From assembly GCA_910574345.1 (NCBI GenBank), contig CAJSZV010000032.1:1-51659 (forward strand): a stretch of 51,659 nt of DNA, written 5' to 3'. The notes under the pieces were generated by a model that was not told the origin of the DNA, searched no databases, and was given only the letters and a program-made list of their open reading frames with translations. Made by a program: the position numbers and the translations under genes. Shown one piece after another: positions 11,181-13,882 of the stretch. The DNA comes from Clostridiaceae bacterium. GTDB taxonomy: Bacteria; Bacillota; Clostridia; Lachnospirales; Lachnospiraceae. Every line of letters starts with the position of its first letter. The stretch's first letter is position 1.

Positions 11181-11306
11181 ATGGGTAAAGCGTACAATCT
11201 GTTAAGCAAGCAAGCAAGCAAGCAAGCAAGCAAGCAAGCAAGCAAGCAAGCAAGCAAGCAAGCAAGCAAGCAAGCAAGCAAGCAAGCAAGCAAGCAAGCA
11301 GCATAG
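11181..11306 (+). CDS. Leader peptide containing (Ser-Lys-Gln-Ala)8
   Basis: ATG 11181 has AAGGGG nine bases upstream. The frame encodes MGKAYNLL, then eight Ser-Lys-Gln-Ala units from the AAGC tract, one Ala and TAG at 11304: 41 residues. Since 4-nt units are read in triplets, any change not a multiple of three copies alters the frame after the tract. The other two frames end at stops before 11413, so none joins the regulator gene at 11464. Translation is not proven; the conserved ribosome site and in-frame start are the evidence. Confidence 0.4.
   Translation: MGKAYNLLSKQASKQASKQASKQASKQASKQASKQASKQAA
11204..11299 (+). repeat. Tetranucleotide microsatellite (AAGC)x24
   Basis: Twenty-four perfect, uninterrupted copies of AAGC. 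Such tracts are prone to slipped-strand copy-number change. It lies in a transcribed leader 165 bp ahead of a LuxR/MalT-type regulator whose next gene is a giant surface protein. Confidence 0.97.
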
Positions 11307-11356
11307 CTGCGCCCTTTTTTACCCCATTACTATTTTACATACACAGAAATGGCAGA

Positions 11357-11406
11357 GCCGGTTAAGAGGCATGGGTATTCCCATGTCTCTTAATCGGCTT
11401 CTTTTA
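11357..11406 (+). terminator. Strong intrinsic terminator between leader and regulator
   Basis: A 19-bp stem (GCCGGTTAAGAGGCATGGG at 11357-11375 with its complement at 11380-11398, two G-U pairs) with a TATT loop is followed by TTCTTTT. It stands between the AAGC leader and the regulator start at 11464, where no clear promoter is seen, so the regulator may depend on read-through. Confidence 0.85.
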
Positions 11407-11463
11407 ATCTAAAGATGGCACACAGAGCGTGGCAGACTTGGATTTGTGGAAGGAGAAGGTCAT

Positions 11464-13842
11464 TTGGATAAAGGATATATAGCACCGGAGTCTGCATTAA
11501 GGAAACTGCGTGCGGCAAATGGGCTGGGGCATACGGTCTATATCTATGGGGCAACCGGCTATGGGAAAACGGAACTGGTGAAGCAGTACCTGTCAAAACG
11601 CAGGTACCGTTATATCTCCTGCGCAGAGGATGCCGCAGGGCTTCCGGATGTGGCGGCACAGGGGGACAGGAAAGGAAAAGGGGCGGAAACCCGGACGGTG
11701 GTGGTCGTGGATGACCTGCACCTTCTAAAAGACCAGGAGGGGCGAAGGGCTGTCCTTTCCCTCATAAAGCGGGAGGATGTATGGCTCATTCTGATCTGCC
11801 GCAGCCCCATCCCGGCCTGGCTGATGCCGCCCTATGTGGGCGGGGGATTCCTCGTCATCATGGAGGATGACCTGCGGCTAAAGGAAAAAGAGACCGCCGC
11901 CTACATGGAATCCAGGGGGCTGGACATCACGGAGGAGGAGCTGGCATTTGTGACGGAAAGAAGCCGGGGCAACGCCTATATCGTGCGCCATGCCGCCCTT
12001 AAGATGCTGGAAGGCATGCGCCCCGGCCCGGAGATGGCCGGGGAGATCGTGGAGGCTTTTGCCGCATATCTGGAAAGCCATGTGATGGTGCAGTGGGACT
12101 GCGATCTGCTGGAATTCCTCATGCAGGTCAGCGTTACCGATGAATTTACCCTGCCCCTTGCGGAGATGGTCACGGGGAACTGCCATGCGCCGGAGCTTCT
12201 GGAGCGGGCGGTGGAGACCGGGAACTTCCTTTCCTGCAAAGACGGCGCCTACCGCCTGCGCCCCCAGCTCATCCGGGCGCTGCGCAGACGGGCGGCGAAG
12301 GAATACAGTCCGCAGGAGCGGGCAGACCATGCCTACAACGCGGGGCTGTATTACGAGATGCAGGGGCAGATCGTGCCTGCCCTTGCCATGTTTGAACAGT
12401 GTGGGAAGAAAGAGCGGATCAGGGGACTCCTGATACGGAATGCCCGTTTAAATCCAGGCAACGGACATTACTTTGAACTGCGCCGCTACTATTTACAGAT
12501 GGAGGAAAAGGAACTGGAAGAAAGCCCCGTGCTGATGGCGGGGATGAGCATGCTCTATTCCCTGCTGATGCAGGAGGAGGAAAGTGAATACTGGTACCGG
12601 AAGCTGGAACAGTTTGCAGCCTGCGCGAAGGGCGGGCAGAAACGGGAGGCCGTAAGCCGCCTGGCCTACCTTGACATCGCCCTGCCGCACCGGGGGAGCG
12701 CGGACATGATAAACATTATGAAGAGGATGCCTGCCCTGATTTTTGACCGGGGGATGAGCCTGCCGGAATTTTCCGTTACCAACAATTACCCCAGCACCAT
12801 GAACGGCGGCAAGGACTTCTGCCACTGGAGCAGGGAGGACAGGAAGCTGGCCTCCACCATCGGGAAGCTGGTGGAGCGGGTGCTTGGCCGGTATGGGAAA
12901 GGGCTTGTGAAGGTTGCTTTGGGTGAGAGCTTTTATGAAAAAGGAGAGGATGCCTACGAGGTTCTGACCCTCCTTGCCCGCGCGAAGATGGAGGCGGAGG
13001 GCGGCATGATAGAGATTGCTTTTGCCGCCGTGGGATTACAGGTGCGGCTTGACACCCTGCAGGGGGAAATCCAGACGGCGGCAGAAGTCCTTAACTCTTT
13101 TGAAAAGGGCGTAAGGGAGCAGGGGGCGGTACAGCTCCTTCCCAATATCGGTGCGTTGCAATGCCGCCTTGCGCTCTACCAGGGGGACAAAGAAGCAGTA
13201 TCGGCATGGATGGCGCAGGCCCCGGACGAGGACAGGGAGTTCTGTATCATGGAGCGTTACCGTTACCTTACGAAAGTGCGCTGCTACCTTTCCCTTGGGG
13301 AATATTTAAAAGCTCAGGCATTGCTGGAAAAGCTGCGCTATTACACGGAGAAATGCAGGCGCACCTATGTCCGCATGGAAGTATGCCTGTTAAGCGCCAT
13401 AGCAAAATACCGGACGGGCGGGGCGTGGAAGGAAGAATTCCTCTCCGCATTGAAGGAAGCCTGCGGATATCGCTTTATCCGCCTGATCAGCGAGGAAGGG
13501 GCGGCGGTGCAGGAATTGTTTGCGGCGGCGGGGAAGAGCTTTCTGGAAAAGGAGATACCGGACAAAGAGTGGCTTTCCCGGCTGATGGGGGAAACGGGGA
13601 AAGTGGCGGTGCGCTACCCGGTGTACTTAAAAGGACAGCTTGCGAAAGCGCCGGACTTCTGTGAGGCGGCTTTATCCGTCTTACGGTTACAAGCAGAGGG
13701 AAAGAGCGTGGGGCGTATCGCCCAGGAACTTTCCATGAAGGAGGCCACGGTGAAGTACCACGCGAAGGAGAACTACCGGAAACTGGGCGTGTCCGGCAAG
13801 GCGGACGCGGTTCTTGCGGCAAGAAATTTAGGGATTTTATAA
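11464..13842 (+). CDS. MalT-like STAND ATPase, LuxR-type transcriptional regulator
   Basis: This protein of about 792 residues belongs to the large-ATPase LuxR (LAL/MalT) class. Walker A GATGYGKT is at 29-36 and Walker B VVVVDD ends at D83-D84. A long helical TPR-like middle follows. Residues about 738-792 form the LuxR helix-turn-helix: RLQAEGKSVGRIAQELSM, then EATVKYHAKENYRKLGVS. These proteins switch on target promoters after ligand and ATP binding. TTG at 11464 is the likely start (GGAGAAGG just upstream); GTG 11446 is possible. The surface-protein gene starts 40 bp after its stop, so it is the probable target and operon partner. The upstream terminator and AAGC tract suggest variable expression. 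Confidence 0.85.
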   Translation: MDKGYIAPESALRKLRAANGLGHTVYIYGATGYGKTELVKQYLSKRRYRYISCAEDAAGLPDVAAQGDRKGKGAETRTVVVVDDLHLLKDQEGRRAVLSLIKREDVWLILICRSPIPAWLMPPYVGGGFLVIMEDDLRLKEKETAAYMESRGLDITEEELAFVTERSRGNAYIVRHAALKMLEGMRPGPEMAGEIVEAFAAYLESHVMVQWDCDLLEFLMQVSVTDEFTLPLAEMVTGNCHAPELLERAVETGNFLSCKDGAYRLRPQLIRALRRRAAKEYSPQERADHAYNAGLYYEMQGQIVPALAMFEQCGKKERIRGLLIRNARLNPGNGHYFELRRYYLQMEEKELEESPVLMAGMSMLYSLLMQEEESEYWYRKLEQFAACAKGGQKREAVSRLAYLDIALPHRGSADMINIMKRMPALIFDRGMSLPEFSVTNNYPSTMNGGKDFCHWSREDRKLASTIGKLVERVLGRYGKGLVKVALGESFYEKGEDAYEVLTLLARAKMEAEGGMIEIAFAAVGLQVRLDTLQGEIQTAAEVLNSFEKGVREQGAVQLLPNIGALQCRLALYQGDKEAVSAWMAQAPDEDREFCIMERYRYLTKVRCYLSLGEYLKAQALLEKLRYYTEKCRRTYVRMEVCLLSAIAKYRTGGAWKEEFLSALKEACGYRFIRLISEEGAAVQELFAAAGKSFLEKEIPDKEWLSRLMGETGKVAVRYPVYLKGQLAKAPDFCEAALSVLRLQAEGKSVGRIAQELSMKEATVKYHAKENYRKLGVSGKADAVLAARNLGIL

Positions 13843-13882
13843 GAGGGGACGCCCCTTTGTAGATAAAAAGGAGTCATATATT

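Follow-up and report, generated by a model that had tools for sequence, protein, structure and literature searches.

An AAGC tetranucleotide array in a leader reading frame as a probable phase-variable transcription attenuator ahead of a MalT/LuxR-type regulator and a large surface protein

In the trp leader the position of the ribosome on the leader decides whether a terminator forms, and in surface genes of Neisseria and Haemophilus tetranucleotide repeats inside the coding gene give phase variation that is switched on and off by frame. Here we describe an array of AAGC units that lies in a short leader open reading frame (ORF), ahead of a predicted terminator, a regulator gene and the gene of a large surface protein, on contig CAJSZV010000032.1 of a Clostridiaceae bacterium (assembly GCA_910574345.1; Lachnospiraceae in the GTDB lineage), of which positions 1 to 51,659 were analysed and are called the window. 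Judging from its anatomy and from comparison with other loci, this array very probably belongs to a phase-variable transcription attenuator, in which the number of units, through the point where leader translation ends, would switch the regulator and the surface protein. The closest described system is pil1 of Streptococcus gallolyticus, for which attenuation-like phase variation via GCAGA repeats was shown by experiment (Danne et al. 2014, PMC3894217). As reported there, the pil1 leader with 22 units ends 49 bp (39 bp in the figure legend) before the terminator and expression is low, and with 21 and 23 units it ends 4 bp before or inside it and expression is high; expression is high from leaders that stop within the hairpin or 4 bp short of it and mixed, mostly low, from those stopping at least 28 nt before it, and chloramphenicol as well as mutations of the start codon and the terminator show that leader translation drives read-through (PMC3894217). 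The same paper names translation-mediated attenuation of amino-acid operons as a comparison. Our literature search on phase variation combined with attenuation, leader peptides, terminators, tetranucleotide or AAGC repeats or gut taxa returned this paper alone with a title and abstract describing the mechanism, in coverage that lacks most subscription journals, so others may exist.

The features of the locus on which the comparison rests are as follows.

11084-11112, forward strand: candidate upstream promoter P1, TGGACT-17-TAAAAT (promoter scan, and conservation in five related loci including the window).
11164-11170, forward strand: leader ribosome site AAAGGGG, ending 10 nt 5' of the leader ATG at 11181.
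11171-11198, forward strand: nested promoter-like element TTGAAA-16-TACAAT (promoter scan), with its predicted start inside the array.
11181-11306, forward strand: leader ORF, 41 codons at 24 units (ORF list and translation).
11204-11300, forward strand: AAGC array, 24.25 units (tandem-repeat scan).
11304-11306, forward strand: leader stop TAG, used at 21, 24 and 27 units, predicted OFF.
11310-11325, forward strand: segment CGCCCTTTTTTACCCC, complementary to the leader ribosome-site region (folding and pairing comparison).
11355-11406, forward strand: predicted intrinsic terminator, a stem (11355-11400) with a T-rich tail.
11363-11365, forward strand: leader stop TAA, used at 22 and 25 units, 10 nt inside the stem, predicted ON.
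11410-11412, forward strand: leader stop TAA, used at 23 and 26 units, 12 nt past the stem, predicted ON.
11464-13842, forward strand: MalT/LuxR-type (LAL/STAND) regulator (Pfam TPR_MalT and GerE; probable start by conservation).
13883-20218, forward strand: surface protein of 2111 residues, starting 40 nt after the regulator end.

The array, the only one of its kind in the window, is perfect (100% match, score 194) and has no stop codon in any of its three frames, and at its present length the ORF encodes the 41-residue peptide MGKAYNLL(SKQA)8A. As in pil1, the repeat unit is not a multiple of three and lies within a leader ORF bearing a ribosome site, and an intrinsic terminator is predicted between this leader and the operon; the hairpin was scored at 11356-11399 with 20 counted pairs, the maximum of the scan, and TCTTTTAATC lies directly 3' of it. 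By frame arithmetic, and counted from the start of the stem, the leader stops in the three frames end 49 nt upstream, 10 nt downstream and 57 nt downstream, so that unit number sets whether the leader ends at least 28 nt before the hairpin or at, in or after it. Most of what the first-pass annotation had read in this region holds, namely a ribosome site, a small frame with (Ser-Lys-Gln-Ala)8 from 24 AAGC units, a terminator (to which it gave a 19-bp stem), a STAND/LuxR regulator followed by a 2111-residue surface protein, and the lack of a clear promoter of the regulator's own, our promoter scan having listed no promoter-like site between the hairpin and the regulator. The promoter-like box that it placed before the leader is also present, as the TTGAAA-16-TACAAT element, but this cannot be the promoter of the translated leader because it overlaps the leader's own start; it may be a second, nested promoter rather than the source of the leader RNA.

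In the mechanism that we propose, RNA would start from P1, near 11119, and ribosomes would load at AAAGGGG and the ATG at 11181 and translate the array. Slipped-strand gain or loss of one AAGC unit, which we would expect to occur in populations, would shift the frame of the leader. With 3k units (such as the 24 assembled here) the leader would stop as soon as the array is passed, 49 nt short of the stem, the terminator would form, and the regulator and the surface protein would be OFF; with 3k+1 or 3k+2 units the ribosome would end in or just past the stem, no terminator would form, and RNA polymerase would enter the operon (ON). The cassette at 24 units is predicted to be in the OFF state, and variants with 22 or 25 and with 23 or 26 units in the ON state. 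The regulator may in addition be an activator of its own conserved promoter, in which case the switch would be amplified.

Set beside trp-type attenuation, whose input is the level of an amino acid, the input of this cassette would be a heritable random change of repeat number. Its tetranucleotide units and on/off logic by frame resemble those of the Neisseria and Haemophilus genes, but there the repeat lies in a protein-coding gene, whereas that of the window belongs to a leader of its own, followed by a terminator. The likeness to pil1 (and pil3) is closer: an intrinsic terminator precedes a surface operon, and one frame stops well before the hairpin and the others at or in it, with 22 units low and 21 and 23 high in pil1 and 24 predicted OFF and 25 and 26 predicted ON in the window (PMC3894217). 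They differ in the unit, a 5-nt GCAGA against a 4-nt AAGC, and in the target, a pilus operon in pil1 against a regulator and a surface protein here (PMC3894217). Further features to be set beside pil1 are the nested promoter-like element, the segment complementary to the ribosome site, and a spread over several families. Functional proof belongs to pil1 only; the AAGC cassettes are predicted switches.

To this spread we turn first. A genome contig collection covering 84,980 species was scanned for TTGA followed, after a gap, by TTAAGC and three more AAGC units, which identified 64 stretches; their record titles include many Lachnospiraceae, Ruminococcus, Oscillospiraceae, Erysipelotrichaceae and Defluviitaleaceae, and often give gut or rumen as the sample source. 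The cassettes fall into 18 sequence groups, 17 in Bacillota and one in a metagenome-assembled genome (MAG) labelled Dehalococcoidia; these groups, like the 26 leaders counted below, were picked by eye. The leader-type loci have a common layout of a G-rich ribosome site, TTGACA, a start codon, ~18 nt, the array, stops, a terminator and a gene. A Shine-Dalgarno (SD) 4-mer precedes TTGA in 22 of the 26 leaders against 2.8 expected, and 21 leaders have both SD and start codon, where control windows predict 1.0. Judged from sequence, the product of the downstream gene has a hydrophobic, signal-like start in 11 of 18 group representatives; leucine-rich repeat (LRR), InlB-type or S-layer domains were found downstream in L056, L057, L060, L068, L072 and L076, the product at L077 is PP2C-type and that at L106 SpoIIE-type, and Pfam gave no match for 11 of the 19 downstream proteins scanned (the L009 acyltransferase described below was left out).

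We then located the stop of each post-array frame relative to the hairpin and compared these positions with those in shuffled spacers. From the 64 loci, 19 were set aside by hand as non-Bacillota or non-leader-type (the five from the Dehalococcoidia-labelled MAG were kept), 11 of the remainder broke off where the array ends or were too short, the sequence of L062 passed into Ns, L015, which breaks off at the same point, was left out, and L010, L011 and L014 were added, giving 36 scored rows; omitting L053, L073 and L091 (no clear terminator; coding-type) and the near-duplicates L085, L088, L104, L105 and L108 left 28 rows, later 29 with L112. Stem ends were set or adjusted by hand in L010, L050, L067, L106 and L112. 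At least one frame ended no more than 8 nt short of the stem in 28/28 loci (shuffles 22.4, sd 2.0, 0/1000), at a limit chosen after seeing L056 (with 5 nt, 27/29 loci and 17/18 groups), and in 17 of these 28 two frames were also closed within 30 nt of the array (shuffles 7.7, sd 2.4, 0/1000). Calling a frame ON from 5 nt before the stem onward and OFF at 28 nt or more before it, limits near those reported for pil1, we found both types in 27/29 loci (shuffles 16.7, 0/2000) and in 17/18 group representatives (shuffles 10.6, sd 2.1, P 0.001), and at least one ON with exactly two OFF frames in 11/18 groups (shuffles 3.7, sd 1.7, 0/2000). L112, found later by a class search without the TTGA filter, fits the pattern, with stops ending at 4, 38 and 51 and a stem starting at 52. 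With their assembled unit numbers and from the expected start, eight of the 29 loci read ON (L014, L049, L058, L059, L060, L076, L106 and L112) and 17 OFF, the window included; L057 is ambiguous, L084 and L109 are intermediate, and L093 is without a call.

Several points weigh against reading these loci as attenuators. An ON frame taken alone is only weakly unusual (17/18 groups; shuffles 13.0, P 0.015), the best frame of L056 stops 8 nt short of the stem, and in L060, L066, L068, L072, L084, L093, L109 and L112 the best frame ends at the stem base (within 5 nt) and not through the stem. The 18 groups may share remote ancestry, for which shuffles give no control, and the differences in unit number were seen between related genomes and not within one strain. 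A nested promoter would give RNAs without the leader start, which an attenuator leaves unexplained. In pil1 itself, a mutant whose leader stayed short whatever the repeat number was reported to lie slightly above the low state and not to equal it (PMC3894217).

That copy number sets where the leader ends relative to the terminator had been proposed in the first-pass annotation and has gained comparative support, from the frame arithmetic, from recurrence in unrelated loci above shuffles and from the pil1 precedent; its other branch, in which copy number acts through the spacing or structure of the RNA, fared less well, although the array does lie in a predicted hairpin that pairs the leader ribosome site with the segment after the array. 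The leader in the window folds at -97.3 kcal/mol against -70.6 in 100 shuffles (z -6.1), with the array forming the inner stem of this hairpin. Across 28 loci, the ribosome-site region pairs better with its own post-array segment than with permuted ones (-14.5 against -12.6 kcal/mol, sd 0.49, P 0.0002), the clearest cases being L010, L066, L067, L095 and L109, but in 9/28 loci the own partner ranks 14th or worse of 28. An array hairpin might on these grounds hide or expose the ribosome site or compete with the terminator, with unit number tuning its stability regardless of frame; such a structural switch appears unlikely to us, since in the predicted fold the terminator stands apart from the array hairpin and the placement of stops by frame would be left unexplained. 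Within the attenuator, one might guess that a frame running on through the complementary segment could keep the ribosome site open. An Rfam scan gave no match at the gathering score, and two sub-threshold microRNA matches on the hairpin.

A second set of questions concerns the promoters. Promoter-like sites are no commoner in the region than in shuffles (4 against a mean of 3.9), so the support for P1 comes from conservation and not from the scan: its block is kept upstream of the regulator in the window and in four loci with related regulators, L090, L018, L019 and L020. As L019 and L020 have this block without leader or array, the leader cassette seems to sit between an older promoter and its gene. 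Next to P1, and conserved in the same five loci, is a candidate operator.

11067-11084, forward strand: imperfect palindrome ACTATCCGTTTGGAGAGT, candidate operator.

It has one exact copy in the genome, which fits autoregulation by the regulator, as may occur here; a second genomic site was rejected, the search having found two places with 3 mismatches each and the reversed-pattern control four places.

The nested element recurs across AAGC arrays. TTGACA is intact in 24/26 leaders, and nAnnnT stands at a spacing of 16-18 in 25/26, against 2, 5 and 10 of 26 at spacings 9-11, 12-14 and 19-21 (by single spacing, 16 at 17, 8 at 18, 7 at 19, 7 at 20 and 0-3 at 6-16). As the 64-stretch scan filtered on TTGA, that tetramer is uninformative there, but the scan did not select for the CA that follows, for the spacing or for the -10-like hexamer. 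The best hexamer of L082 is at spacing 20, in a comparison that took a wrong TTGA as the anchor of L068. The element is present too where the leader seems to start elsewhere, in the Erysipelotrichaceae loci L065, L067 and L093, and a TTGACA-like hexamer, 16-18 nt and nAnnnT also stand directly 5' of AAGC arrays in L009, L016, L112 and 11 viral loci. Of 50 AAGC arrays collected without the TTGA filter, 18 (7/7 from Clostridia and 11/43 viral) score at least 9/12 within 12 nt of the array against 0.9 expected; the opposite orientation gave 0/50 (0.8 expected; 6 against 3.9 at a score of at least 8). At the same threshold, viral-contig arrays of CAAT (forward 1/25, reverse 2/26; 0.7 and 0.5 expected), AGTC (1/11 and 1/11; 0.2 and 0.1 expected) and CCAA (2/42 and 0/47; 0.3 and 0.2 expected) gave small counts, slightly above expectation and far below AAGC. 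A promoter-like pair of at least 9/12 lies further upstream in 14/26 leaders, a count without control. These figures would also suit a real promoter at TTGAAA-16-TACAAT whose RNA starts in the array, unit number altering initiation or the untranslated start of the RNA, but we think this very improbable as the whole account, which would leave unexplained the ribosome site with its start codon, the frame pattern and the conserved promoter block upstream. We tentatively raise the possibility, on which we would not rely, that the nested element is a working part of a hypermutable locus in leaders, coding genes and viral contigs, at which sigma-carrying RNA polymerase pauses or starts, either letting the ribosome catch up for attenuation or holding the array open and so raising slippage.

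The genome itself holds three AAGC arrays of at least 6 units, all of them reading AAGC on the strand of the gene concerned. Besides that of the window, L010 (contig C20, 4393-4610; 18.25 units) is a second leader-array-terminator cassette, predicted OFF, which precedes a small membrane protein; genes nearby encode polyvalent-protein-associated and holin-like domains. L009 (contig C16, 7592-8712) is an acyltransferase-3 gene with 25 AGCA units just past its ATG and a frame closed in the assembly; it looks like an ordinary coding-type phase-variable gene of the kind known from Neisseria and Haemophilus. At the locus of the window itself, unit number with like flanks is 24, 27 and 2 in three related genomes, 24 and 27 being of the same frame class. 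L090 (90% identity) has the 27 units and the terminator, and its regulator changes frame and loses likeness to that of the window after ~460 codons; L018, whose DNA is 84% identical across the regulator, shows the leader ATG with two AAGC units, lacks the terminator segment, and has a different surface protein, with leucine-rich repeats, after its regulator. The regulators of L019 (one internal TAG) and L020 (found as two pieces) may be broken. None of 29 regulator homologue loci (L018-L046) has a tandem repeat of at least 18 nt (units of 3-9 nt, at least 3 copies), which is present only in the window's own locus, L017, and regulator relatives were rejected as a source of arrays. An array of the same phase was found in 4/299 family genomes (own included), a stricter motif, which also misses the genome's own loci, in 2/397, and a motif search for short-array cassettes gave nothing beyond the known G304 place and two G184 places. 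An inert or decaying array in a dispensable leader, with the operon simply terminated or driven elsewhere, would sit well with this rarity, with the lack of a leader in two of the four closest regulator relatives and with the decayed regulator behind 27 units in L090, but the perfect repeats and the recurrence of like anatomy in 18 groups leave it scarcely credible.

Some loci depart from the common layout or bear on how completely such arrays are recorded. The Dehalococcoidia-labelled MAG has five similar leaders with differing unit numbers (L054, L075, L082, L085 and L086), possibly a multi-locus switch set, or possibly a mislabelled bin. The sequence ends inside the AAGC array in L015, L054, L055, L069, L074, L075, L089, L094, L097 and L102, and L271 has its array at the first bases of its contig (L015 and L271 both lie at contig ends); assemblies may break at such arrays, and switches may therefore be undercounted. 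A viral contig, L147, carries ~166 AAGC units in one array. In L080 (Blautia, reverse strand, array 7772-7908 in that orientation) 34 units lead straight into a ribosome site and ATG, and the 92 nt present after the array show no terminator; this is possibly a translation-coupled variant.

As to the genes controlled, the regulator probably starts at TTG 11464 rather than at GTG 11446, since TTGGATAAA and a purine-rich site before it at this TTG are kept in L018, L019, L020 and L090. It has TPR_MalT and GerE above the Pfam gathering score and no Pfam NTPase match; its GATGYGKT, which we take to be P-loop-like, indicates the N-terminal NTPase that, with the MalT-type TPR region and the C-terminal LuxR DNA-binding domain, places it among MalT-like LAL/STAND proteins. 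It is not MalT itself, as its 97.7 bits against NCBIfam MalT are under the equivalog cut-off of 537. The surface protein has a hydrophobic N-terminal segment, Ig-like, MBG and InlB-type domains, beta-helix repeats below the gathering score, and a C-terminal membrane segment with KKK. Elsewhere in the window (2427-8291 and 27087-29988) a MobP3 relaxase, a VirD4-type coupling protein, ArdA and a tyrosine integrase are encoded; these genes suggest that the window is part of an integrative mobile element, with which the switch may travel. Plasmid and phage collections gave no match to 10800-13900.

The principle of the mechanism is not new, having already been described for pil1 (PMC3894217); new here are the AAGC unit, the taxonomic breadth, a regulator as target, the segment complementary to the ribosome site and the nested promoter-like element. 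A mechanism shown by experiment for the pili of one Streptococcus appears to recur as a cassette throughout Bacillota, frequently ahead of secreted proteins, and the question of which frame reaches the terminator offers a simple sequence rule for predicting on and off states in genomes and metagenomes. In the window, a regulator as target could pass one random switch to the whole operon.

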